The notes under the pieces were generated by a model. The model was not told the origin of the DNA and searched no databases. It worked only from the letters and a program-made list of their open reading frames with translations. Below, piece after piece: positions 1 through 15,505 of a stretch of 22,536 nt of DNA. The stretch comes from a virus, in the IMG/VR virus record IMGVR_UViG_3300042868_007750, positions 1-22,536 of that record, one strand, 5' to 3'. A program made the position numbers and the translations under genes. Within the stretch, counting starts at the first letter, position 1; the number at the start of each line of letters is the position of its first letter.

Positions 1-18
1 ATTAAAGGAGATGCATTA

Positions 19-696
19 ATGAAATCATTGTTAAGAGAAATGGATGAAAAATTCCAAGTTCATGAAGAAACATGTGACTGCGGACAGCCTGATTGCCAGA
101 TTTGTAATCCGGAAGACCTTGACGAACAAAACGTAACGGGAGCTATAGCTGGATATAATACTCCAGCAGCATTTGCTAAACCAGGTAAATGGAAAAGCAA
201 AAACATTAAATATGAATCTGCAGAACCTGTGTCAAAGAAATATAAACCCGGACATTATCAAACAGTAGAATTTGATGAAGAAGTTCAAAATGATAAATTT
301 CCATTCGCTATCGATGAAAAAATTTGGTGGAATAAAGAAGTAGAATATCCATCTAAAGATTTAAGTAAATCACCTGGAACTGCAAATAAAAAAGATCGCG
401 ATCAGAAAAAAATTACTGCTGAAGATATTCTTGAAAAAAAGTATTTAGAACTTATTGAAGGATATCGTGATTATAAAAAAGGTGATATTAAACCATCACA
501 TAAAGTAAAAGATTCAATTCGAGAAATTGCTAAGAAGCTTCATGAAATTGAAACTATTATAGGACACACAACACGATTAAAAACTGAAGCTGGAGTTGCT
601 GCAACAGAATATGGTCCAGCAGCATCAAAGGCATTAACAAAAATATCGGAACGATTAATTAAAATATCAGAACGAGTAAGATCATTAGGAGAATAA
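19..696 (+). CDS. Unknown protein with N-terminal Cys cluster, 225 aa
   Basis: I do not recognise this protein. A strong SD (AAAGGAG, positions 4-10) sits 8 nt before the ATG, which supports the start. The N-terminus carries four cysteines spaced CxC-x4-C-x2-C (C19, C21, C26, C29), which could bind a metal ion. The middle (about residues 40-130) is polar and rich in Lys, Pro and aromatics. The C-terminal 90 residues are predicted by eye to be helical with heptad-like Leu/Ile spacing. It lies 4 nt upstream of the prohead protease gene and shares its strand, so a head-assembly or head-completion role is a guess from position only. In T4 the portal gene (20) precedes gene 21, but this protein is far too short to be a portal and shows no portal features. 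Confidence 0.85.
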   Translation: MKSLLREMDEKFQVHEETCDCGQPDCQICNPEDLDEQNVTGAIAGYNTPAAFAKPGKWKSKNIKYESAEPVSKKYKPGHYQTVEFDEEVQNDKFPFAIDEKIWWNKEVEYPSKDLSKSPGTANKKDRDQKKITAEDILEKKYLELIEGYRDYKKGDIKPSHKVKDSIREIAKKLHEIETIIGHTTRLKTEAGVAATEYGPAASKALTKISERLIKISERVRSLGE

Positions 697-700
697 AAAC

Positions 701-1330
701 ATGACAAAACAACGTTTAGTAGAATATATGCCGTTTATTCCAATTGGTTCATTAAATGAATCTAGTGGTGCTGCATATGGAATACCTGGTGGATTTGTTG
801 TGCAAGGTGTATTACAAAGAGCTGGAGCTAAAAATCAAAACGGCCGTATCTATCCTAGAAATATACTAGAAAGAGAATGTCGTAGATATGAACAAGAATA
901 CATATCGCAACATAGAGCGTTAGGAGAATTAGACCACCCAGAATCATCTGTAGTAAACTTAAACAATGTATCTCATAATATTTTGAAAATATGGTGGGAT
1001 GGCGATGATTTAAAAGGAGCTGTTCAGATTTTAGAAACTCCGTCGGGAAAAATCCTTAAGGAATTATTTAAAGCTGGAATTACATTAGGAATTTCATCTC
1101 GTGGATTAGGATCTGTTAAAGAGTTACGTAGCGAAGGAACGGTTGAGGTACAAGAAGACTTTGAATTAATATGTTGGGACTTCGTATCTAATCCATCAAC
1201 GCATGGGGCTTTTATGCGCCCTACGCACATGCACGAATCAGTTGGTAAAATGAATACCACGAATAAATATAATAAAGTTAACAGCATCATTACATCAATT
1301 TTATGTGAAGATGGAAAATGTAGGATATAA
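701..1330 (+). CDS. Prohead core protease, T4 gp21-like
   Basis: This is a serine protease of the herpesvirus-assemblin-like fold used by T4-type phages to cleave scaffold and capsid precursor proteins inside the prohead. The expected catalytic residues are visible: His79 in GELDHPES, Ser132/Ser133 in GISSRGLGSV, and Asp160 in WDFVSNPS. The N-terminal GRIYPRNIL segment is typical of the family. The length of 209 aa matches T4 gp21. An SD (AGGAG, 687-691) lies 9 nt before the ATG. The protein continues about 35 residues past the conserved core and ends in a Cys-containing tail (LCEDGKCRI). The scaffold and major capsid genes follow within 2.4 kb, as in T4. A cleavage consensus resembling (L/V)xE|A occurs in both of those proteins. 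Confidence 0.93.
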   Translation: MTKQRLVEYMPFIPIGSLNESSGAAYGIPGGFVVQGVLQRAGAKNQNGRIYPRNILERECRRYEQEYISQHRALGELDHPESSVVNLNNVSHNILKIWWDGDDLKGAVQILETPSGKILKELFKAGITLGISSRGLGSVKELRSEGTVEVQEDFELICWDFVSNPSTHGAFMRPTHMHESVGKMNTTNKYNKVNSIITSILCEDGKCRI

Positions 1331-1750: not shown

Positions 1751-2191
1751 ATGAATAAACTAAAAAAATTATATAAAGAGTTTTTTGGATTAACTGAACA
1801 AACAGAAACGGGAAGTATATCAGTTAAAGATCCTAAGAAGGCTGAAGAATTAGCTAAAAAAGGAATCAATGTAAAGTTAGTTGATGAAGCTCGTTTAGAT
1901 AATCACATTACTGAATACCGCGGAGGAGTTGAAATGGTAATGAATGATCCTGCTATGGCAAAACAAACATTAATGGATATTATACAATGGGCTGAGAAAA
2001 AAGGCTTTACTGTTGTAACTAAAAAATTATCTAGAACAGGGAAAAGCGCTTATGTGTATTTTCGTTTAGGAGAGAACCCAGGAAAAGAAGCACAACGTAT
2101 TCAAGGGTATGTGTCACAAAGTCCGGGAGTAAAACATTTTCGGTTCAATGTAAGAGGTGAACAAGCTAAACCACAACAACCACAGTTATAA
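1751..2191 (+). CDS. Unknown protein, 146 aa
   Basis: I do not recognise this protein. An AAAGG SD-like element (1740-1744) precedes the ATG. The first 15 residues are basic and amphipathic (MNKLKKLYKEFFGL). A compact alpha/beta domain seems to follow at residues 20-135, with alternating beta-like segments (FTVVTKKL, SAYVYFRLG) and helices. The C-terminus is a Gln/Pro tail (QPQQPQL). There are no membrane segments or cysteines. It sits between a helical unknown protein and the bS21 gene and starts a short transcription unit with its own TATTTATA motif. Confidence 0.82.
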   Translation: MNKLKKLYKEFFGLTEQTETGSISVKDPKKAEELAKKGINVKLVDEARLDNHITEYRGGVEMVMNDPAMAKQTLMDIIQWAEKKGFTVVTKKLSRTGKSAYVYFRLGENPGKEAQRIQGYVSQSPGVKHFRFNVRGEQAKPQQPQL

Positions 2192-2209
2192 AAAATCAAA
2201 TAAAGTTAT

Positions 2210-2455
2210 ATGAGTAAAAAAGCAAAACAACATCAACAAATTGTACCAGGTAATTCACTAGCAGTTCAAGTAGTAGGAACGCAGCGAGAAGATTTAGCAC
2301 ACGCTTTAAAAGCATGGAAACGCAAAGTTAAATCTGCAGGAATCCTTGAAGAAACTAAAGAACGCAAAGAATTTATTAAGCCTGGCGTTAGAAAAAGAAA
2401 ACAATTACAACACGCACAATTCATGCAAATGGTAAGAGATTTGCATTCAAAATAA
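2210..2455 (+). CDS. rpsU-like: Phage-encoded small ribosomal subunit protein bS21
   Basis: The 81-aa product is a basic, helical bS21 homologue. bS21 binds the 30S platform near the 3' end of 16S rRNA, beside the anti-SD. Residues 28-81 follow the family: LAHALKAWKRKVKSAGIL (helix 1), an ERKEFIKP turn, then a basic second helix. The C-terminal segment FIKPGVRKRKQLQHAQF matches the Bacteroidota pattern FxKPSVxxRxxxxKAxY as I recall it. Proteobacterial bS21 instead has YEKPTTERKR followed by an Arg/Lys-rich tail. The residue aligned with the anti-SD-contacting Tyr of Flavobacterium bS21 is Phe71. Residues 1-27 form an extra polar extension. No clear SD precedes the ATG. A terminator follows 42 nt after the stop. 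Phage bS21 genes are known from other large phages, but their function is still unsettled. Confidence 0.85.
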   Translation: MSKKAKQHQQIVPGNSLAVQVVGTQREDLAHALKAWKRKVKSAGILEETKERKEFIKPGVRKRKQLQHAQFMQMVRDLHSK

Positions 2456-2496: not shown

Positions 2497-2528
2497 AAAG
2501 CCCCTTCTTAAAAAGTTGGGGCTTTTTT
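2497..2528 (+). terminator. Intrinsic terminator after bS21
   Basis: AAAGCCCC (2497-2504) pairs with GGGGCTTT (2518-2525), giving an 8-bp stem. The 13-nt loop can itself form CTT/AAG. A T6 tract spans 2523-2528. It separates the protease/bS21 genes from the scaffold/capsid unit. Confidence 0.85.
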
Positions 2529-2636: not shown

Positions 2637-2667
2637 TTTCCAAAAAACAAAATTTAGGAGTAAACAA

Positions 2668-3672
2668 ATGGCAAAATCAGATTTGCTAAAAGAAGCAATC
2701 GCAGATGCTCGTGCTGTAAAAGAAACTGCATTAGCAAACGCAAAAATCGCGCTTCAAGAAGCTTTTGCACCTCGTATCCAACGTATGATTTCAGATCAAA
2801 TCGAGAATGAACTTGATAGTGAAGAAGAAGTACCAGCAGAACCAGCAATGGACATGGACATGGATATGGGAGCTGAAGAAGACGATGAATCAGGTGTCAA
2901 TTGGGTAGACAACGATATTTCATTTGAAGTAGGTGGTCAATCATATGATGCTGAAGTAGGTAATCCAATGGGTGATGAATTAGAAGGCGATGAATTAGCA
3001 GGCGAAGAGATGCCAGCAAATGATATGCCAGCAAATGATATGCCAGAAGAGAATCCTGAGGATGAATACAATGAAGGATATGACGAGATGGATGAAGATT
3101 TAAATCTTGAAGCAATTATTCGTGAATTAGAAGGTGACTTAACTGAAGCAGACGAAATGGATGTTGAAGAAGAAATGCCAGAAGACGAAGAAGAGTTAGA
3201 AGAAGATTTTAATATCGACGAAATCATTGAATCAATCTTGCGTGAAGAAGAAGATGTAGATGTTGATGTTCCGTCAACAGACACTGCAGACGAAGAATTA
3301 ACAGAAACTAAAGCTGAATTAGAAGAAGCGTATAATACGGTTCGTCAATTGAAAACTATTATTAGTGAAGTTAATTTATTAAATGCAAAACTTCTTTACA
3401 CAAACAAATTGTTCCGCAATTTTGAATTGTCAGAAGGTCAAAAAATGAAAGTAATTGAAAACTTTGATCGCGCTGGTAATACAAGAGAAGTAAAATTAGT
3501 ATTTAGTACGTTAGCTGAATCATTCAAACGTCCAACTGCTAAAAAACGTGTAGTTAAAGAATCGTATGCATCTAAACCAACTGCAACAACGGCTCCTAAA
3601 AAAGAATCTACCGTAATTACAGAAGGCTTTGAATTAGCTAATCGTTGGAAAAAATTAGCAGGATTGCTATAA
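2668..3672 (+). CDS. Prohead scaffold (core) protein, T4 gp22-like
   Basis: This 334-aa, very acidic protein has the composition and location of the T4 core scaffold, which fills the prohead and is degraded by the gp21 protease. The N-terminus (residues 1-50) is helical with Leu/Ala heptads. The middle (about 50-210) is an Asp/Glu-dominated low-complexity region with short tandem repeats (DMDMDMD, PANDMPANDMP). The C-terminal third is helical and basic and ends RWKKLAGLL, similar to the Leu-Ala-Gly ending common in T4-type scaffolds. AGGAG (2656-2660) lies 7 nt before the ATG. The capsid gene follows after 24 nt with no terminator, so the two are probably co-transcribed. LLKE|A near residue 9 and LQE|A near residue 30 resemble protease cleavage sites. 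Confidence 0.88.
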   Translation: MAKSDLLKEAIADARAVKETALANAKIALQEAFAPRIQRMISDQIENELDSEEEVPAEPAMDMDMDMGAEEDDESGVNWVDNDISFEVGGQSYDAEVGNPMGDELEGDELAGEEMPANDMPANDMPEENPEDEYNEGYDEMDEDLNLEAIIRELEGDLTEADEMDVEEEMPEDEEELEEDFNIDEIIESILREEEDVDVDVPSTDTADEELTETKAELEEAYNTVRQLKTIISEVNLLNAKLLYTNKLFRNFELSEGQKMKVIENFDRAGNTREVKLVFSTLAESFKRPTAKKRVVKESYASKPTATTAPKKESTVITEGFELANRWKKLAGLL

Positions 3673-3696
3673 CATTTAAAAACAAGGAAAAAAGAA

Positions 3697-5361
3697 ATGT
3701 CAATTTCAAATTTATTACAAACAAATGACTTCGTTCAAAGAAATAACGCTAAATTAGCAGTTACTAAATGGGAGAAGACAGGATTGCTAGAAGGTCTTAG
3801 AACTGAGACTGAAAAAGCAGGTATGGCGCAATTGCTTGAAAATCAAGCACGTCAATTAGTAAAAGAAGCGTCTGCAACAGGAACTTCAGCTGGATCTGAA
3901 GAATGGGCTGGTGTTGCTTTACCATTAGTACGTCGTATTTTCGCTGAATTTGCAGCAAAAGAATTCGTATCAGTACAACCAATGAACTTGCCATCAGGTC
4001 TAGTATTTTACTTAGATTTTAAATATGGTACAGCTCAACCAGGATTTGACGCTGACAACAACAACCGTACGGGTGATCCATTTGGTTCTCCTAACGCTGA
4101 TGACTCTATGTTTGGTGTTACAACTACATCAAATGATCCATCGGGAGGTCTTTATGGTGCAGGTCGTTTTGGTTACTCAATCAACGAAACATCATCAATT
4201 GTAACTGCATTAACTGGATCTACTCCAACAGCAGCGCAAGTTAATGGTGACTCTGCATATTCTGGATCAGCTAGCTATAAAATGGTAACCGTTAATGTTC
4301 CTACTAACGCAGATCTTTATGCAGTTCGTTCATTTACATTCTTATCAGGATCTGTAGAAATTGTACCGGTACAAGCATTTTCAACAATTAATAGCAATTA
4401 CACTGCATCATTCGTTGTAACTAATGCACAATTAACTGCAGTAAGTGCTTCAATCTCAGCAGGTACATTGAAATTAAATTATTCGAAACAACCGGTTGAT
4501 ACAACTCGTGGTGATTTTGAAGACACAAATCCTTTCAAAGGAACGTCATACGGAACTTCAGGAATCAATGAGGGAACTGATATTAATATTCCAGAAATCA
4601 ACTTGGAAATGCAATCAGAGCCAATCGTTGCTAAAACACGTAAGTTGAAAGCTGTTTGGACTCCTGAGTTTGCTCAAGATTTAAATGCTTATCACTCAAT
4701 TGACGCTGAAGCTGAATTAACTTCTATGTTGTCTGAATACGTTTCTATGGAAATCGATTTAGAGATTTTAGATATGTTAATCTCTGCAGCACCAACAACT
4801 GAGTATTGGTCAGCACGTAACAATACAATTTGGAACGGTACGGCATTTGAACAAGTAGCAGCTGGAGCAGTTTCTGCAACAGGTTTAGGTGATGGTTTCT
4901 ATAACACTCAAGGTGGATGGTTCCAAACATTAGGTACTAAACTTCAAAAAGTATCTAACAAAATTCACCAAAAAACATTAAGAGGTGGTGCTAACTTCTT
5001 AGTAACAAGTCCATCAGTTGCAACTGTGTTAGAATCTATCCCAGGATTTGCTGCTGATACAGATGGTACTAAAATGGAATTTGCAGCTGGAGTTCAAAAA
5101 ATTGGTGCGATTAATAATCGTTACACAGTTTATAAAAACCCATATATGCAAGAGAATGTTATCTTAATGGGATTCAGAGGAGCACAGTTCTTAGAAACAG
5201 GAGCAGTATTTAGCCCTTATATTCCGTTGATCATGACACCATTAGTATATGATCCAGTTAACTTCACACCACGTAAAGGGGTTATGACTCGTTACGCGAA
5301 AAAAGTAGTTCGTTCAGAATTCTACGGTAAAGTTTACGTACACGGATTAAACACTCTATAA
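3697..5361 (+). CDS. Major capsid protein, T4 gp23-like
   Basis: This is the main shell protein, 554 aa against about 520 aa in T4. Family landmarks include VSVQPMNLPSG (from about residue 97), where T4 has CGVQPMNSPTG. The HK97-fold spine segment has AKTRKLKAVWTPEFAQDLNA followed by DAEAEL (about 312-345), very close to T4's AKSRQLKAAYSIELAQDLRA and DADAEL. The C-terminus includes KGVMTRYAKKVV and FYGKVYVHGL. Residues about 110-290 are the most divergent part, rich in Ser/Thr/Asn, and probably form the insertion domain. LVKE57|A58 is a plausible gp21 cleavage site removing an N-terminal delta region, as T4 gp23 is cut near residue 65. An AAGGA SD precedes the ATG and a strong terminator follows the gene. 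Confidence 0.96.
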   Translation: MSISNLLQTNDFVQRNNAKLAVTKWEKTGLLEGLRTETEKAGMAQLLENQARQLVKEASATGTSAGSEEWAGVALPLVRRIFAEFAAKEFVSVQPMNLPSGLVFYLDFKYGTAQPGFDADNNNRTGDPFGSPNADDSMFGVTTTSNDPSGGLYGAGRFGYSINETSSIVTALTGSTPTAAQVNGDSAYSGSASYKMVTVNVPTNADLYAVRSFTFLSGSVEIVPVQAFSTINSNYTASFVVTNAQLTAVSASISAGTLKLNYSKQPVDTTRGDFEDTNPFKGTSYGTSGINEGTDINIPEINLEMQSEPIVAKTRKLKAVWTPEFAQDLNAYHSIDAEAELTSMLSEYVSMEIDLEILDMLISAAPTTEYWSARNNTIWNGTAFEQVAAGAVSATGLGDGFYNTQGGWFQTLGTKLQKVSNKIHQKTLRGGANFLVTSPSVATVLESIPGFAADTDGTKMEFAAGVQKIGAINNRYTVYKNPYMQENVILMGFRGAQFLETGAVFSPYIPLIMTPLVYDPVNFTPRKGVMTRYAKKVVRSEFYGKVYVHGLNTL

Positions 5362-6438: not shown

Positions 6439-7677
6439 ATGGATTACAGTCAAAATAAGCCAATATGGCCAGGAAGTTCATCGTTTACAACAGGATCTAC
6501 GCCTTTTGGATTTTTTGATAATGATCCAATGTTTCAACAACATGCTGATAGCTTCGCAAAATATGCTGCACAACACGTTGGATACCCTATTACTGATGTT
6601 GAACTTAAAGATATAAACTTCTATACAGCATTTGAAGCTGCTGTGATGGAATATTCAAATCAAATTAATCAAGTTAACATTGTTAACAATTTGATGAATA
6701 CATTAGGAATTCAAACAGGGTCAGGATTTATGTCAGGCTCTAGTTTCACAGGACATAATGTAGGAAATTCATTTGGATATATTTCTAAACTTTCAAAAGC
6801 ATATGGTACAGAAGCTGACTCGGGCGGTACTGTTAAATGGAAAAAAGTTAAGATAGATATGATACCTGGCCAGCAGACATATAGTTTGCGTGCTGCGGTA
6901 TCTGCATCATTAGCTGTTAATAATATAGCTTTAACAAATACAAGTTCAATTGAAGTAAAACGTGTACTTCATAATCCACCGCCGGCAATTGCTAGATATT
7001 TTGATCCATTTGTTGGAACAGGATTAGGCTCGCAACAATTACTTGATTCATTTAACTTCGGAGGATTTTCGCCTTCTATTAGTTTTATGATGATGCCAAT
7101 ACACGCAGATTTAATGCGTTTGCAAGCTATTGAGTTTAATGATCAAATACGTAAGTCACATTACACATTTGAGATACATGGCGATGATATCAAGTTTTGG
7201 CCGGTACCGTCATCAGGAGCAGGTGCTACAGCATCTAATATATTCTACGGTCAAGTTTGGGTCGAATATATATTCGAAGAAGACAAAAACAATGATGCAC
7301 TTTTATTCGGCAATACAGCTCTTATAAACGGTGCGGTAAGTGACGCATCTAATATACCATATACATATCAAACATACAGTAGCATTAATGATATGGGGCG
7401 TGCGTGGATTATTAAATACGGATCGGCATTAGCAAAAGAAATGTTAGGATTTGTTCGTGGAAAATATAGTACAATTCCAATCCCGAACTCAGAAGTAACA
7501 CTTAATGGAGCAGAATTAGTATCACAAGGTCAATCTGAAAAAGATGCACTAATTACACAATTGCGAGAATTTTTAGATAAATTAACTAAAGAACAAATGT
7601 TAACAAGACAAAATGCAGAAGCGACTCAAATGAATGAGATTCTTGCAAAAGTTCCATTAAAAATTTATGTTGGATAA
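6439..7677 (+). CDS. Virion structural protein, probably neck protein (gp13-like by position)
   Basis: This 412-aa protein is directly followed by gp14-like and gp15-like genes, so by T4 gene order it should be the gp13-type neck protein that joins the portal to the tail. I cannot confirm this from residues alone. The N-terminus contains YPITDVELKDINFYTAF, followed by a helical segment. A central region (about 110-290) is rich in Gly/Ser/Phe and beta-prone segments, including an IHGDDIKFWPVPSSG stretch like those in phage connector or structural proteins. The C-terminal part (340-412) is a long helix rich in Lys, Glu and Gln ending in KVPLKIYVG. An AAAGGA SD lies 8 nt before the ATG. The next gene starts 12 nt after the stop. 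Confidence 0.75.
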   Translation: MDYSQNKPIWPGSSSFTTGSTPFGFFDNDPMFQQHADSFAKYAAQHVGYPITDVELKDINFYTAFEAAVMEYSNQINQVNIVNNLMNTLGIQTGSGFMSGSSFTGHNVGNSFGYISKLSKAYGTEADSGGTVKWKKVKIDMIPGQQTYSLRAAVSASLAVNNIALTNTSSIEVKRVLHNPPPAIARYFDPFVGTGLGSQQLLDSFNFGGFSPSISFMMMPIHADLMRLQAIEFNDQIRKSHYTFEIHGDDIKFWPVPSSGAGATASNIFYGQVWVEYIFEEDKNNDALLFGNTALINGAVSDASNIPYTYQTYSSINDMGRAWIIKYGSALAKEMLGFVRGKYSTIPIPNSEVTLNGAELVSQGQSEKDALITQLREFLDKLTKEQMLTRQNAEATQMNEILAKVPLKIYVG

Positions 7678-7689
7678 AGGAGATAAGAT

Positions 7690-8211
7690 ATGGCACTATT
7701 TGGAGGAATTAGAGATGCGCGCTTTTTAGCAGCAATTAATTCAGAACTATTAAATGCAATCGTTGATACTGAGATTGAATTCTTCAAACTAATAGTTGAA
7801 GCTAGCGATTCGAACATGTATGGCGAATCAGAATCAAAAGCATTTTACAATTCATTATTACTTCCATGTTTAATTACAAAAGAAGGTAAAACATCATCTA
7901 TGGATGATTATGGACACACATATACTCGTACAGCACAATTTGCATTATCTCGAGATTTATTGGAAAATGCTGGGTTCTTCCCTGAAGTAGGAGACATTGT
8001 ATTTTGGGACAATGAATATTATGAACTTGATAATGTTGACGCAAATCAGTATTTTCTAGGCAAAAACCCAGAAACATGGCCAAACGGATCTCAACATGGT
8101 TATAGCGTGTCTGTATTATGTGATGCACACGCAACAAGACAAACTCCACAAGGAATTAAAGATATTCGAAGAGGTGGTAATAATAACGCACCAGCATATA
8201 AAGGACAATAA
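7690..8211 (+). CDS. Neck protein, T4 gp14-like
   Basis: In T4, gp14 joins gp13 on the filled head before tail attachment. The 173-aa product resembles the central part of T4 gp14 (256 aa). A segment on a glycine-aspartate turn reads EVGDIVFWDNEYYELDNVD, corresponding to the T4 stretch EGDLIYFPMDNSLFEINWV. It is preceded by an ENAGFFPE loop and followed by NQYFLGKNPETW. It is shorter than T4 gp14 and lacks that protein's C-terminal region. A strong SD (AAAGGAG, 7676-7682) overlaps the stop codon of the preceding gene. The stop codon overlaps the next ATG by one base (TAATG), indicating translational coupling. Confidence 0.8.
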   Translation: MALFGGIRDARFLAAINSELLNAIVDTEIEFFKLIVEASDSNMYGESESKAFYNSLLLPCLITKEGKTSSMDDYGHTYTRTAQFALSRDLLENAGFFPEVGDIVFWDNEYYELDNVDANQYFLGKNPETWPNGSQHGYSVSVLCDAHATRQTPQGIKDIRRGGNNNAPAYKGQ

Positions 8212-9383
8212 TGCCTAGATTGAATAGGGAAAATATCGACAGAAAAACTAATAAGCCTAATCCAACAAGTACGGATAGCTTATGTGATGATGATGTTATT
8301 CGTACTCCAAAACGTACTTCATACGATATTGATTATGCAATTAAATGGTTTGTTGATAATGAAATACGGCCACAAGTTCAATCAAATAAAACAACTATAA
8401 CAATACCAACAATTTGGGCTAATGGTGAAAAATGGGATAACGTACGACGATTAGGATATTTACGTGATGAAAAAGGAATGCTTCAATCTCCACTAATTAT
8501 GTTGAAGCGAAACAGTATCACGGAAAGAGACTCAGTTAAAACATTAGATGTTAATAGACCACAGTCAGAAAATGTTCGTATCTATAAATCTAAATACAAT
8601 GAACGAAATAGATACGAAGATACATTCTTCCCGATGCCTACTAATACTCCAGCATCATCAGAAAAAATTTACATAGCAGATATTCCTAAGTATGTAACTA
8701 TCGAATATGATATGATGATATGGTGTGATTTTACTACGCAGTTAAACTCAGTAATTGATCAAATTATGCCATATGGTCGATTTGCTTGGGGCAATGAAAC
8801 AAATAAATTTACTACTACAATTGGTTCAATTAATTTCGAAACAATGAATACTACGGGGGAAGATCGAATAGTACGAGCTACTATTCCATTAACGGTCCTA
8901 GGAACTTTATTATCAGAACAAGAAGTTCGTCGATCTACTTTAAGAAAAATGTACTCAGTTAAACAATTAACATTTGATCAGTCTGTCGATGTTGATGTTG
9001 ATTTATTTAGTACAACTGTTGTTCCTCAACAACTTTTAAGATTAGCTAGTACAGGTGCATCAATATCAGTCTCTGGCGCAACAACAGCCGCCGTTACACC
9101 TGCAGTTATGAATTATTTAACGACATTAACAGACCAACAAGCTACATATTCAAATGCAACAACAGTAACGGTTAATGCTTACGCAGCAATTAATCCCGTA
9201 ACATTCTTAGTTGCAACAAAAAATGAATTTGATGTGTACATTAATGGTCAATACATTGATAAACAATTATATACTTGGACACCCAACGACGTTGCTACGC
9301 AAACAATCGTATTTGATACTGCCATGTTAGGTTACCCTATAGAATCCACCGATACGGTAATTATAAATGGAAGGTGGTCATAA
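8211..9383 (+). CDS. Tail completion / sheath stabilisation protein, T4 gp15-like, with C-terminal extension
   Basis: T4 gp15 forms the ring capping the tail tube and sheath where it meets the neck. The best match is residues 161-197: YVTIEYDMMIWCDF, then VIDQIMPYGRFAWG, mirroring PIKMIYELSIFTRY and IVEQILPYFQPHFN in T4 gp15. Upstream, TTITIPTIWANGEKW (61-75) corresponds to the T4 segment RVPITYASKEHF. The match ends near residue 235. At 390 aa it is about 120 residues longer than T4 gp15. The extra C-terminal part (270-390) is Thr/Val-rich, looks beta-structured and ends FDVYINGQYIDKQ...VIINGRW, a pattern seen in small beta-sandwich domains of fibres. An AAAGGA SD lies 5 nt before the ATG. 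The gene overlaps the fibre gene ATG by one base. Confidence 0.8.
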   Translation: MPRLNRENIDRKTNKPNPTSTDSLCDDDVIRTPKRTSYDIDYAIKWFVDNEIRPQVQSNKTTITIPTIWANGEKWDNVRRLGYLRDEKGMLQSPLIMLKRNSITERDSVKTLDVNRPQSENVRIYKSKYNERNRYEDTFFPMPTNTPASSEKIYIADIPKYVTIEYDMMIWCDFTTQLNSVIDQIMPYGRFAWGNETNKFTTTIGSINFETMNTTGEDRIVRATIPLTVLGTLLSEQEVRRSTLRKMYSVKQLTFDQSVDVDVDLFSTTVVPQQLLRLASTGASISVSGATTAAVTPAVMNYLTTLTDQQATYSNATTVTVNAYAAINPVTFLVATKNEFDVYINGQYIDKQLYTWTPNDVATQTIVFDTAMLGYPIESTDTVIINGRWS

Positions 9384-12300
9384 TGGGAAGACAGTTTAAA
9401 CCTGGACAATTACAAACAGGTTCTTTATATAATATTTCATCAAGCTATGCCGTAACTGCATCATATGCAGCGAATGCAGGAGGGTCTAGTATCAATACTG
9501 GCTCGTTTGTTACAACGGCATCATTTAATGCATTCACTGCATCTTATGGAACCGGATCATTTACTGGATCATTTACCGGATTGTTAACGGGCACGGCAAG
9601 TTGGGCTAATAATAGTGTAACAGCTTCATATGTGCAAACAGCACAAACTGCTAGTTATGTATTGAATGCGGTATCAGCATCATATGTTAACTCACTACAT
9701 CAGCAAATTATATTATCTGGTAGTTTAAAGCTAGACCCAACACAAGATCCAGACCCATCAGGTTCAGATTTAGATTCAACAGTTTTATTTCAAAGTAGTT
9801 CTAATACAGCATTAGGGTATGATTTATATGTTCGTCAAAATGGAAATCTTGTAAAGTGGAAATGGATTGAAGGTAGTTTAGAAACTGGATTATTATACGG
9901 CGGTGCCGTTACATATAGCGGAAGCAACGTTTTTGTTTCTCCTGGTAGTGGTATTATAGCCGAACATAATGCAACAACTGGATCTGAAGTTTCGCCTATG
10001 ATAGAGTATGTCACGTGGAACGCAATCACACAGAGTATTGCAAATATTGCAACTCAGCAAGTAACCTATTTATATATTGATAATACTGGAACTTTACAGC
10101 AACAGTCAACTAGATTTACATCACAACAGTACCACACCTATATACCATTAGGAGCAGTAGGTCATTTCGACTACACACAAGTATCTGCATTTGGTGGAGG
10201 AGTACAAACAGCATACGATCAAATATCACAAATATCAAATTTCGTAGATGCATTTGGGCCACTAAAGATGTCAGGATATGGGTTGACGGGTCAAGCCGGT
10301 AGTTTAAGATTATCTGTCGGAGCTGGTACTTCTTTTATACATGGTGGATTTTATCAAAATGATCCTGAGTTCCCATCCCAAATAACAACACCATCACAAG
10401 CAACTGCCAGCTTAGCTCGTGTTCAAAGATCCGGATCTGCTATTGAGTTTGATACTAATGCAGGAAACTTTTATACAGTTGTTAATCCTACACAATATGA
10501 TAGAGATGGAGATGGCACATTAGCTAGTGTGGGTAGTGGTAACTGGACAATTCAACGTGTATTTATAGATCCAAAAACCGGAGTACTATACGTCTATTAC
10601 GGTCAAGCACGATATACATCTTTATTAAATGCACTTCAATATCTACCAACAGATCCATTTACTGAAGGCGATACTTTTGATTTTACAACATTCGTAGGAT
10701 TTCTAGTATTAAAAGGAAATGCATCCAATATAGCTGACACCGCAAATAACTCTATAATAAACGGAGGTTTATTTAGAGGTAGTGGACAAGGCAGTGGCGG
10801 TGGAATAGCATTAAGCAATTTAGATGATTTAACAGATGTTTCAATTGTTAGTCCTACAAATGGCCAAGCATTAATATACGATTCAGGCATTTGGCAAAAT
10901 GGAGTACCAACAAGTTCTTCATATGCATTAACAGCATCATATCTAGATAATTACATCCCACCATTCCCATTTACTGGTAGCGCTAGAATTACCGGTAGTT
11001 TAAGTGTAACGGGAAGTGCTTCGATACTTGCTTTTACCGGTAGTTCTGCTAATATATTTACTATACGGAACTCAGCAAATACAGATAATTTACTTCAGAT
11101 TAAAGGTAATAAAGAATTTACATTAGCAAGTGCATTAGTAGGAGATGGTTTTTCAACATATTTAAGTAGCCAAACCGGAGTTACTCAAATAACAGCTGCA
11201 GGTAATTCATTAGCTTTATATGCTGCTTATAACATAAATTATAATGCTGTTAATCAACACAACATTATGATTAATGGTGTTGTAAGAGCATTTATGAATA
11301 GTAGTGGTTATTTAGGTATAGGACAATTAACTCCAACAGCTCGTTTAGATGTTTTAGCACAAGGAGCATTATCCACAGACATAGCATTTAGAGTTAGAAA
11401 TAGCGCAGATACCGTTAACCTTGCTTCAATACAAGGAGATGGAGTTTTAAATTTAGCATATTTAGCAGATACCTCAAGAATAGCAATAAATTCAACAACC
11501 TCAGGACAAGCTGCTATAGCTATAGGATCTGGAAATTCTGGTTTAAGAACAGTAAGTGTAGGATATAACAACGATGCTAGTGGACAAGATGGAGTAGTAA
11601 TTGGACAAGGAAATACAGCAGCTTCAGCTGGCAGCTGTGGTATAATAGTAGGATATAACAACAATCATACTAATGGAATTGTAGTTGGAAAAAGTAATTC
11701 AGGAAGCAATTCATTAATATTTGGGAATTCAAATTCAATTGGAGGTTCTGGTGCTACAAACAATAATGTAATAGCTATTGGTAATGGTATGACAGAAACT
11801 AGTGGTAATGCTAAATTACCACATACATTTATGTTTGGAAGTTATGCTACTACTGGAAATAAAGCAGGTTTATCGTTTCGTTCAAATAATATAAATCATT
11901 TATTACTTGGTTATGACATAATGGATTCGTCCTACTCAAATACTAGTGGTTCTAACTGGATGGGATTTAAATCAGGATCTCTCCCTGTTCAATCACCAAA
12001 TACATTTAAAATATGGGCATCTGGATCAGTTGGAAATGTAAAACCATATTTTATTACAGAAAATGGAACTACAATTTGGCTCGGAGATGAATCCCGTTTA
12101 TTTAACGTTACCGCATCATCAATCACTTCATCATTTACAGGATCACTTTTAGGAACAGCAAGTTATGCAACTCAAGCACTAAGCGCTTCATTTGCTCCTA
12201 GTTCACCGGCATTTCCATTTACAGGTTCTGCTTTAATAACTGGTAGTTTAGGAGTAACTGGTAGTGCTTCAATACTAGCTTATACAGCTAGTGCAGCTAC

Positions 12301-13729
12301 TATATTTAACGTAAGAAATAGTGCAAATAGTGCAAATTTACTTCAAATAAATGGTGATAGTACAGCAGCATTTGGTAGTACTATTTATTCAAATGCTGGT
12401 TTAACATTGACTGGTACAAAACAATACAATGCATACTTTGAAGGTGGAACAACCGGAATATATGTAGCAAATAATTTAAGCGCAAATACAAGCAAAGGTA
12501 TTGAAGTCCTTTCTAGAATTAATAATTTAGCAGGTGCTGGCGTTTCTTCTACGGGTGTTACAACAACTGCAGATGGAGGAAGTACAACTAGTGCACATTA
12601 CGGAATCAGATCAAATGCATATGGTTCTGGGACTAATTATGGTGGGTATTTTGATGTTGTTAATGGTGTTAGTAACTATGCAATAGTTACACAACGAGGA
12701 TTTTCTGGATTTGGTCAAACTGCACCTGCAGCAATGGTTGATATTAAAGCAGCAGGTGCTTTATCAACAGATGTAGCATTTAGAGTTAGAAATAGTGCTA
12801 ATAGTGCTAATATTTTAACTGTATTAGGAACTCAAGATGTTTTTATTGGCTCAACAACAACTCCAGCTGGAGTAGGCCATTTATTTAACATTAGAAATGG
12901 GGGTAGTACAAGTATCCCATTTGCTTATTTTGATAATGCTTCATTCAATTTAGATATAGATAGATTTTGTAATATTAAATTTGGTTTTGGATTAATTGGT
13001 GTAACTAGTGCAACCCACACTTTATTATTAGGTACAGGATCTGTCCCAACCGGAAGAAATTCTGGACAAACAATGGCCGCATGGACAGCTATTTCACAAG
13101 GTACGAATGATAGTGGATTTGTTCAAACCGGTGGTGATACATCTAGCAACAATGCTGTTTACTATAACTATATTGGTAAAAACTGGACTCTAGGAGGAAT
13201 AACTCAAGGAAACGGAAAAAACGTTTTAGCTCTAATCACAGGATCTGCCCCAACTAATAACATATCAAGTTCCTTTCAATTATATGCATCAACTGGATCA
13301 TTAACTAATAATACAAGGCCACACATCCGTACAGGAAACGGTACTGTAGTTTGGCTTGGAGATGAATCACGTTTATTCAATGTAACTGCTAGCAACATGA
13401 TGATAGGAGCTACTTCATCACTAGCATTATTTACAAGTGTTAACTCAACAGTCAATGTTGGTACAACAACTATATATGCTTTCCCGACTGCCTCATATGA
13501 TGGCGTATTTATTGATTACACAGCACGTAGTGGTTCGAATGCTAGGGCGGGGCAATTAATGGGTATCTGGTCCGGAAGTGCAGTAAACTACACGGAAACT
13601 ACCACTACAGACTTCGGCTCAACTTCAGCAATTACATTCGGAATGAGTGTATCTGCAAGCTCAATGATTGTATCAGCATCTGCAACAACCGCAGCATGGT
13701 CCGTAAAAACAATCATCAGAAGTATGTAA
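9383..13729 (+). CDS. Long tail fibre / adhesin-like protein, 1448 aa
   Basis: The ATG at 9383 is chosen over the in-frame GTG at 9374 because GGAAGGTGG (9369-9377) is an SD at the right spacing and the ATG overlaps the upstream stop. Residues 1-110 are SxSYxxTASY and TGSFTGSF repeats typical of phage fibre shafts. A DRDGDG calcium-loop-like motif lies at 373-378 and a LDDLTDV...ALIYDSGIWQNG segment, common in phage fibres, at about 480-510. Residues 528-912 and 944-1337 are a duplicated block sharing three conserved modules. Residues about 696-803 are Gly/Asn-rich with AIAIG-type strands, like a beta-roll head. The last 90 residues form a beta-rich terminal domain. No catalytic chaperone motif (GxxS/peptidase S74) is seen. 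Host-receptor binding is the expected role. Confidence 0.88.
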   Translation: MGRQFKPGQLQTGSLYNISSSYAVTASYAANAGGSSINTGSFVTTASFNAFTASYGTGSFTGSFTGLLTGTASWANNSVTASYVQTAQTASYVLNAVSASYVNSLHQQIILSGSLKLDPTQDPDPSGSDLDSTVLFQSSSNTALGYDLYVRQNGNLVKWKWIEGSLETGLLYGGAVTYSGSNVFVSPGSGIIAEHNATTGSEVSPMIEYVTWNAITQSIANIATQQVTYLYIDNTGTLQQQSTRFTSQQYHTYIPLGAVGHFDYTQVSAFGGGVQTAYDQISQISNFVDAFGPLKMSGYGLTGQAGSLRLSVGAGTSFIHGGFYQNDPEFPSQITTPSQATASLARVQRSGSAIEFDTNAGNFYTVVNPTQYDRDGDGTLASVGSGNWTIQRVFIDPKTGVLYVYYGQARYTSLLNALQYLPTDPFTEGDTFDFTTFVGFLVLKGNASNIADTANNSIINGGLFRGSGQGSGGGIALSNLDDLTDVSIVSPTNGQALIYDSGIWQNGVPTSSSYALTASYLDNYIPPFPFTGSARITGSLSVTGSASILAFTGSSANIFTIRNSANTDNLLQIKGNKEFTLASALVGDGFSTYLSSQTGVTQITAAGNSLALYAAYNINYNAVNQHNIMINGVVRAFMNSSGYLGIGQLTPTARLDVLAQGALSTDIAFRVRNSADTVNLASIQGDGVLNLAYLADTSRIAINSTTSGQAAIAIGSGNSGLRTVSVGYNNDASGQDGVVIGQGNTAASAGSCGIIVGYNNNHTNGIVVGKSNSGSNSLIFGNSNSIGGSGATNNNVIAIGNGMTETSGNAKLPHTFMFGSYATTGNKAGLSFRSNNINHLLLGYDIMDSSYSNTSGSNWMGFKSGSLPVQSPNTFKIWASGSVGNVKPYFITENGTTIWLGDESRLFNVTASSITSSFTGSLLGTASYATQALSASFAPSSPAFPFTGSALITGSLGVTGSASILAYTASAATIFNVRNSANSANLLQINGDSTAAFGSTIYSNAGLTLTGTKQYNAYFEGGTTGIYVANNLSANTSKGIEVLSRINNLAGAGVSSTGVTTTADGGSTTSAHYGIRSNAYGSGTNYGGYFDVVNGVSNYAIVTQRGFSGFGQTAPAAMVDIKAAGALSTDVAFRVRNSANSANILTVLGTQDVFIGSTTTPAGVGHLFNIRNGGSTSIPFAYFDNASFNLDIDRFCNIKFGFGLIGVTSATHTLLLGTGSVPTGRNSGQTMAAWTAISQGTNDSGFVQTGGDTSSNNAVYYNYIGKNWTLGGITQGNGKNVLALITGSAPTNNISSSFQLYASTGSLTNNTRPHIRTGNGTVVWLGDESRLFNVTASNMMIGATSSLALFTSVNSTVNVGTTTIYAFPTASYDGVFIDYTARSGSNARAGQLMGIWSGSAVNYTETTTTDFGSTSAITFGMSVSASSMIVSASATTAAWSVKTIIRSM
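10964..13393 (+). repeat. Duplicated module block inside the fibre gene
   Basis: Two blocks (10964-12118 and 12212-13393) carry the same three modules in the same order. Module A is FPFTGSAxITGSLxVTGSAS plus an IFxxRNSAN core (10964 and 12212). Module B is a DxxAxGALSTDxAFRVRNSA core (from 11321 and 12713). Module C ends in VWLGDESRLFNVTAS or IWLGDESRLFNVTAS (12005-12118 and 13274-13393). Only the modules are conserved; the spacers differ. This is protein-level duplication with substantial divergence. Confidence 0.75.
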
Positions 13730-13777: not shown

Positions 13778-15505
13778 ATGCCAAACGAATTTATAATCAA
13801 GAACGGCTTTCGTTCACAAGGTAATAGTGAAATTACTGGATCTTTAGGAGTAACAGGTTCAATCAATGGCCTAATTTTAGGTTTAGGGAGTAGCAGCATT
13901 GCAACAAATATTGCTATAGGTGCAAGCACCTTAGGCTTTAATACAACAGGAAACAACAATGTTGCTTTAGGTTCAAGTGCCTTATACGATAATACAACAG
14001 GAACAAACAATATTGCTCTAGGTCAAAATGCTTTAAGAAATAATACTGAAGGTAATTTTAATACAGCTTTAGGTGTAAATTCTTTACGTAATAATACAAC
14101 AGGAAATAGTAATGTTGCTTTAGGCCCAAATTCTCTACAATCAAATACTACAGGAAATTACAATATTGCTTTTGGACTTGAAGCACTAGGTAATAAAGAT
14201 AACCCCAACACAGGAAATAACAATATAGCTTTAGGTCAACGAGCTTTATATTCTAATACAACTGGAAATAGAAATTTAGCTTTAGGATATAATTCATTAC
14301 AGTACAATACAACTGGAAATTACAACACTGCTTTAGGAACAACAGCTTTACGATACAATTATAGTGGAACTAATAATACTGCTTTAGGATTTAGATCATC
14401 ATTATCAAATACAACAGGTACAGGAAATATTTCTTTAGGAGCTAATTCATCACTAGCAAATACAGTTGGATATGATAATATTGCGTTAGGAGCATCTTCA
14501 TTAAGAGCTAACACGTTAGGAGCTAATAATATTGCTTTAGGATATAGTACATTAAGAAATAATACTGAAGGTGATTTAAATATTGCTTTAGGATTAAATG
14601 CTTTATATTCAAATACAACAGGAAATCGTAATATTGCTCAAGGTTATAAAGCATTATATTCAAATACTGAAGGAACCAATAATATTGCTTTAGGTTCTCG
14701 TGCATTATATTCAAATACAACAGGAATATATAACATTGCTATAGGTCATGAGGCTTTATTATATAACACGTATGGAAATAACAACATAGCTCAAGGTTAT
14801 AGAGCTCTATTTAGCAATACAATCGGAGCTTACAATATTGCTGTAGGTACAAGTGCATTATATTATAATACAACAGGAATATATAACATTGCTTTAGGTG
14901 GTTTTGCTTTATCTTCCAATACAACAGGAGTTCGAAACATTGCGGTGGGCCAAAATTCTTTATCTTCCAATACAACCGGACAATATAATATTGCTTTAGG
15001 TTATAATGCTTTAAATAAAAACACAACCGGGTATCAAAATATTGCTTTAGGTGGTGGTGCTTTATCTTCCAATACAACCGGACAATCTAATGTTGCTTTA
15101 GGTGGGGGTGCTTTATATTACAATACAACCGGATTTAGTAATACTGTTTTAGGTGAAAATGCATTACGTTATAATACAACCGGGTATCGCAATGTTGGTC
15201 TGGGTCTAAACACATTATCATATAACACAACTGGGTATCATAACGTTGCTTTAGGCTTTAGCACTTTACAATTTAATACAACTGGAAATCATAATACTGG
15301 AATAGGATATAGTGCCCAATCAGGTAACTATTCAGGCTCAATTATGCTTGGAGCACTTGCTACTGCAACAAATAATGGACAACTTGCTTTAGGTTCCTCA
15401 ACATACCCATTAGGGCCCGTAACAACAGAAGCATTAGTTTCAAATAAAACACTACAAATAAATCTAAACGGTAATTTATACAAAGTATTAATGTATCAAG
15501 CTTAA
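13778..15505 (+). CDS. Repeat adhesin / fibre protein with 27 beta-roll-like 17-residue repeats, 575 aa
   Basis: An AGGGA element (from 13761) precedes the ATG. Residues 1-34 carry the ITGSLGVTGS module also found in the upstream fibre, so the two proteins probably belong to the same organelle. Residues 55-516 are 27 consecutive copies of NTTGxxNIALGxxALxx: 25 are exactly 17 residues, one is 21 (copy 5) and one is 16 (copy 6). A degenerate copy (TNIAIGASTLGF) precedes them. The pattern of a short strand, a turn and an Asn/Gly-rich loop resembles the left-handed beta-roll heads of trimeric autotransporters such as YadA. The last 59 residues are non-repetitive and end LQINLNGNLYKVLMYQA, a likely beta-capping or attachment segment. 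No signal peptide is visible. A receptor-binding or virion-decoration role is inferred. Confidence 0.87.
   Translation: MPNEFIIKNGFRSQGNSEITGSLGVTGSINGLILGLGSSSIATNIAIGASTLGFNTTGNNNVALGSSALYDNTTGTNNIALGQNALRNNTEGNFNTALGVNSLRNNTTGNSNVALGPNSLQSNTTGNYNIAFGLEALGNKDNPNTGNNNIALGQRALYSNTTGNRNLALGYNSLQYNTTGNYNTALGTTALRYNYSGTNNTALGFRSSLSNTTGTGNISLGANSSLANTVGYDNIALGASSLRANTLGANNIALGYSTLRNNTEGDLNIALGLNALYSNTTGNRNIAQGYKALYSNTEGTNNIALGSRALYSNTTGIYNIAIGHEALLYNTYGNNNIAQGYRALFSNTIGAYNIAVGTSALYYNTTGIYNIALGGFALSSNTTGVRNIAVGQNSLSSNTTGQYNIALGYNALNKNTTGYQNIALGGGALSSNTTGQSNVALGGGALYYNTTGFSNTVLGENALRYNTTGYRNVGLGLNTLSYNTTGYHNVALGFSTLQFNTTGNHNTGIGYSAQSGNYSGSIMLGALATATNNGQLALGSSTYPLGPVTTEALVSNKTLQINLNGNLYKVLMYQA
13940..15325 (+). 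repeat. 27-copy tandem repeat, about 51 bp per unit
   Basis: The repeat encodes residues 55-516 of the protein above. DNA copies have diverged at synonymous and variable positions, but the AAT-ACA-ACA-GGA core is kept in most copies. The period is 51 bp, apart from one longer copy (63 bp) and one shorter copy (48 bp). All units are in frame. Confidence 0.93.

Follow-up and report, generated by a model that had tools for sequence, protein, structure and literature searches.

The ribosomal protein bS21 of Flavobacterium johnsoniae has a documented influence on which mRNAs are translated. Alteration or loss of the protein, whether by the substitution Y54A, by truncation or by depletion, raises the translation of mRNAs with a strong SD motif (McNutt 2023, PMC9976891); the loss-of-function change reported is Y54A, not Y54F, and bS21 proteins of phages are discussed in the same study. 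Phage-encoded versions are known from several settings. Chen 2022 (PMC9723584) found bS21 in phages of freshwater Bacteroidetes, where the gene adjoins structural genes; position 54 is mostly Tyr, with a few His and one Phe, all called aromatic, and aromatic residues at this position are argued to preserve stacking on A1534. A survey of viral ribosomal proteins by Mizuno 2019 (PMC6375957) covers the bS21 of Pelagiphage HTVC008M and the incorporation of phage bS21 into Escherichia coli ribosomes. Huge phages encode rpS21 with basic or aromatic N-terminal extensions, for which a take-over of ribosomes has been predicted (Al-Shayeb 2020, PMC7162821). Redirection of ribosomes by phage bS21 is a standing proposal that has lacked a defined target, and the SD pattern described below supplies one.

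The locus under study lies in IMG/VR virus record IMGVR_UViG_3300042868_007750, positions 1 to 22,536; this whole stretch of 22,536 nucleotides is referred to as the window. Judged by its gene matches, the window reads as a stretch of late genes from a T4-like phage, with genes for prohead protease, capsid, PhoH, neck, sheath and tube. The hallmarks of T4-like myoviruses, namely a gp21 protease, a gp23 capsid, a contractile sheath with its tube and the late gene order, are all present. On the plus strand, between the prohead (head maturation) protease (701..1330; phrog_207, 2.9e-54) and the T4-like major capsid protein (3697..5361, by sequence match), an rpsU-like ORF at 2210..2455 encodes a product of 81 aa whose C-terminal end is FIKPGVRKRKQLQHAQFMQMVRDLHSK. 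Its proposed identity as bS21 is upheld by a Pfam profile search, in which PF01165 (Ribosomal_S21) scores 42.9 bits against a cut-off of 27 and covers residues 21–69, and by a sequence search of solved chains, in which the top match is F. johnsoniae bS21 (7jil, E 1.4e-7), followed by 9i5v (1.2e-6), both scoring well ahead of bS21 from Firmicutes and proteobacteria. The PHROGs match is the phage bS21 family. The gene is kept at the same position in ~80 related viral loci, which rules out a chance ORF. The AlphaFold model (pLDDT 84, pTM 0.47) comprises helices at residues 26–43, 45–52 and 58–80, and a Foldseek search with this small free helical chain returned no significant match. Just 3' of bS21 a terminator-like hairpin with a T run, AAAGCCCC...GGGGCTTTTTT (2497..2528, plus strand), was recognized by eye; its loop is too long for the hairpin scanner, hence its absence from the scanner listing. 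No tRNAs or Rfam families were found within the window, and no genes for the partners bS18 and bS6 in nine long records of related phages.

Three further genes of the window deserve a mention. A sulfotransferase family protein (16106-16924; PF13469 1.2e-15, PF00685) is encoded in the late region without an SD motif and has no orthologue at the same place among the lineage loci searched. A fibre-like protein of 1448 aa (9383-13729) shares, over residues 166–418, ~30% identity with tailspike and hypothetical proteins of Streptomyces phages. The third, a 575-aa protein built of repeated NNTTGxxNIALG-like units (13778-15505), has no Pfam match and is probably a fibre or adhesin.

The C-terminal segment of bS21, FIKPGVRKRKQLQHAQF (2372..2422, plus strand), is Bacteroidota-like on comparison with the bS21 types of hosts. 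The C-terminal half shares a mean identity of 42–52% (best 56–68%) with Bacteroidota bS21 that has Tyr at position 54, as in F. johnsoniae, against 25–32% with the Arg54 type of Bacteroidota and 22–32% with three non-Bacteroidota references. It also carries the pattern [FY]xKPSVxxRxxxxxAx[YF], which is like that of Tyr54-type hosts. The Bacteroidota-type tail noted in the sequence-only reading is thus borne out; the bS21 phylogeny, weak at 56 columns, was used for group membership only. At its other end the protein begins with a basic extension of 15 residues, MSKKAKQHQQIVPGN (2210..2254, plus strand), which according to the alignments is conserved in the lineage and missing from host bS21. 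The median extension is 15 aa in the window lineage versus 0 in the short bS21 proteins that other phages encode on the strand opposite their structural genes. Six Bacteroidota genomes contain two or three bS21 genes, the extra ones being possible paralogues or prophage copies.

SD motifs were scored as GGAG, GAGG, AGGA or AAGG located at −18 to −4, and ORFs were called independently of them, taking as start the first ATG that did not lie far within the gene before it. By this measure 65% of the genes in the window are SD-led, versus 15% when shuffled; the figure is 45–70% in bS21-bearing relatives and 5% in Flavobacterium phage immuto, which is devoid of bS21. On the plus strand of the window, AAAGGAG precedes the ORF 19-696 (4..10), the ORF 7690-8211 (7676..7682) and the tail sheath gene 17711-20197 (17697..17703); AGGAG precedes the prohead protease gene (687..691) and the gp22-like gene 2668-3672 (2656..2660, with an SD in 30/30 orthologous leaders); and AAGGA precedes the major capsid gene (3684..3688, 34/34). 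The bS21 leader (2190..2209, plus strand) holds no SD motif. Across the lineage, an SD is present in 253 of 306 distinct leaders of orthologues of the window genes other than bS21, versus 0 of 36 for bS21 (Fisher p=1.6e-24).

Flavobacteria are arranged the other way round. In Flavobacteriaceae loci only 17 of 398 genes other than rpsU (4%) have an SD, in agreement with the earlier suggestion that phage late genes are SD-led and Flavobacteria-type genes mostly are not. The strong-SD rpsU leader, a trait of autoregulation, occurs in 80/80 Flavobacteria loci and in none of the 36 distinct bS21 leaders of the lineage. At other Tyr54 Bacteroidota loci 12 of 113 genes have an SD, and sampled genes are SD-led in 4–11% of cases for the Tyr54 type versus 23% for the Arg54 type. 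With its SD-led late genes and SD-less bS21 gene, the lineage is a mirror image of the Flavobacteria arrangement.

Capsid-based sampling yielded 132 usable phages, in which bS21 was sought by Pfam search as well and a phage was counted as SD-using when at least 30% of its genes were SD-led. SD use characterizes 74 of the 78 phages with a same-strand bS21, versus 3 of 50 without bS21 and 0 of 4 with a short bS21 on the opposite strand. The leader of the capsid gene alone divides the sample similarly (70/78 with same-strand bS21 versus 6/54 others). The Fisher p values for this co-occurrence, 1e-20 to 1e-26, disregard the relatedness of the phages. The capsid tree joins the 32 rows of the window clade, which have bS21 and nearly all have SD, to the immuto clade as their sister; its 37 rows have no bS21 and are nearly all without SD. 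About three independent contrasts are well supported, of which on average 2.5 agree and 0.1 disagree; because they are so few, a sign test is not significant. In long records, SDs precede 28–40% of all genes and 55–78% of structural homologues in bS21 phages, and 6–9% and 11–15%, respectively, in phages without bS21. Within the bS21 phages the structural genes exceed the other genes, of which 22–36% are SD-led. Since ordinary SD-using T4-like phages share such a late bias (19/33 in the early region of T4, 30/36 in the late region of Aeromonas phage 25), the bias alone is no proof of a switch. None of the papers found, in a search of incomplete coverage, describes phage bS21 and SD use as coupled.

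Some phages depart from this coupling. A small clade of six loci has an SD at the capsid gene but no detectable bS21, and two loci, together with the opposite-strand group, bear bS21 and are SD-poor. Of eight phages with bS21 but no capsid SD, five have coding-like upstream stretches, so that errors of start choice are likely in these. An apparent SD-rich group without bS21 was dismissed, as the Pfam search finds the gene in 4/4 members. Another upstream element, TATTTATA, is strongly enriched before genes, in intergenic regions (for example, 20 occurrences versus 2.6 expected), in the records behind five sampled loci and in those of immuto. It is likely a variant of the T4-type late promoter, common to phages with and without bS21.

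The host phylum, read from sequence, is the main uncertainty. A Bacteroidota host is quite probable for the window lineage, because the C-terminal half of bS21 is Tyr54-like and the capsid phylogeny places the window near Flavobacterium phages. The bacterial promoter motif TAnnTTTG shows no enrichment in bS21 phages or in immuto; as it is unenriched even in the latter, it was dropped as an uninformative marker of Bacteroidota hosts. In its sheath and neck proteins, the window is nearer to Microcystis phage Mel-JY01 than to immuto. Mel-JY01-type phages pair bS21 with SDs, and their host probably uses SDs. Position 54 of their bS21 is occupied by Arg or Lys, and the bS21 gene itself is SD-led in 12 of 13 cases.

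In the favoured reading, for which the chances appear about even, phage bS21 with its conserved basic extension at the N-terminus would enable ribosomes to use the SDs of late mRNAs. The likeliest hosts would be Bacteroidota with a Tyr54-type bS21, hosts in which bS21, bS18 and bS6 conceal the anti-SD of 16S rRNA and translation begins without SDs. Its SD-less leader would make the phage bS21 mRNA translatable by host ribosomes in their normal state. The product might then swap in for host bS21, docking through its host-like C-terminal helix. Position 54 of the phage protein stays aromatic, as Phe or Tyr, but its core helix differs and it has the basic extension of 15 residues; this altered N-terminal half and extension may leave the anti-SD free or aid SD pairing. 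Ribosomes rendered SD-competent would favour the SD-led late mRNAs for capsid, scaffold, neck and sheath. The most far-reaching version, with a probability of roughly 0.4, is that the phage protein turns Bacteroidota ribosomes from SD-blind to SD-reading, and that the lineage exploits this virus-installed change of initiation mode by having SDs on its late genes and none on the bS21 gene.

A somewhat doubtful alternative attributes the whole pattern to the host: phages of SD-using hosts would keep SDs, simply the norm there, along with a bS21 that serves another use, and moves into SD-less Flavobacteria would entail the loss of both. Such an account accommodates the Mel-JY01-type phages, which combine bS21 with SDs, place an SD before bS21 itself and include, in Mel-JY01, the named phage closest to the window in sheath and neck proteins; the joint loss of bS21 and SDs along the capsid tree also fits host shifts. 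It is less easily reconciled with a C-terminal half of the Tyr54 Bacteroidota type, whose hosts have so few SD-led genes, or with Flavobacterium phages as the sister of the window clade, and an SD-using host does not explain why the bS21 leader is SD-less in 36/36 cases despite SD-led neighbours. That leader would make sense if phage bS21 were a plain spare part, restoring or maintaining the 30S subunit late in infection when host bS21 is limiting and leaving the choice of mRNA unchanged, as it would evade the autoregulation of host bS21. Moreover, F. johnsoniae cannot do without bS21, the protein is readily exchanged (PMC9976891, PMC6375957), and phages with a short opposite-strand bS21 do have the protein without SD-led genes. 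A spare part is nonetheless distinctly unlikely, since neither the association of same-strand bS21 with SDs across the clade nor the conserved N-terminal extension is explained by it.

The sequence-only reading had located the switch in a single residue, with Phe71 replacing Tyr54 and thereby weakening the grip on the anti-SD. The correspondence itself is confirmed: codon 71 (TTC, 2420..2422, plus strand) stands opposite the Tyr of 'QKAAYIQ' in the 7jil alignment, and multiple alignments concur. A host rpsU with the same Phe was looked for, and 150 distinct Bacteroidota host bS21 proteins contain Tyr in 102, Arg in 47, His in 1 and Phe in none. This absence, together with the increase in SD-led translation in F. 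johnsoniae Y54A (PMC9976891), favours a causal Phe71. Within the window lineage, however, 30 distinct proteins have Phe at position 54 and 18 have Tyr, the site has changed between the two at least five times on the capsid tree, and SD use is equal, at 245/486 genes (50%) in Phe phages versus 183/371 (49%) in Tyr phages (Mann-Whitney p=0.71). Phe71 also retains the aromatic ring, and Chen 2022 reports one Phe54 and predicts that stacking is retained (PMC9723584). Phe is phage-typical, yet untied to SD use; as the determinant of the latter it was ruled out, and a causal role in releasing the anti-SD is very improbable. Of the earlier interpretation, the bS21 gene, its Bacteroidota-like tail and the SD-led late genes stand, Phe71 as the cause does not, and any switch must reside elsewhere in bS21.

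Conversion of host ribosomes by phage bS21, if true, would mean that one small viral protein alters the initiation mode of the host ribosome. The SD pattern makes a prediction for each case: the SD-led late genes would gain, the bS21 gene, being SD-less, would be independent of the switch, and phages such as immuto would be without it.

Set against the described systems, the window gene largely joins a group already published, as bS21 of Bacteroidetes phages and, once, Phe54 have been reported. The resemblance to the phages of Chen 2022 (PMC9723584) extends to a T4-like myovirus setting in which bS21 adjoins the genes for prohead protease, capsid and terminase, to a Bacteroidetes-like C-terminus with an aromatic residue at 54 and a divergent N-terminal helix, and to the suggestion that, late in infection, phage bS21 steers the choice of mRNA towards phage transcripts. 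Their bS21, however, is on the strand opposite the structural genes, whereas in the window and its clade within the 132-phage set bS21 and the structural genes share a strand, and the window differs further in that its bS21 is extended by 15 aa at the N-terminus and its late genes are SD-led. Opposite-strand loci with a short bS21 resembling theirs have no SD-led genes in the present sample, and no analysis of phage SDs was found in the accessible part of that paper. Pelagiphage HTVC008M likewise encodes bS21, and phage bS21 can enter 70S ribosomes, but its protein is of the alphaproteobacterial type, unlike that of the window, and the portion of the source accessible yielded no SD analysis (PMC6375957). 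The N-terminal extension recalls the huge-phage rpS21 of Al-Shayeb 2020 (PMC7162821), a paper that, as far as its accessible part goes, ties missing SDs to rpS1 and yielded no coupling of bS21 with SDs. Finally, the bS21 of F. johnsoniae (PMC9976891; 7jil) belongs to the same family and has the same C-terminal docking segment, with Tyr54 as the aligned residue. In F. johnsoniae a strong SD precedes rpsU and most genes have none, whereas in the window bS21 has none and most core late genes have one.
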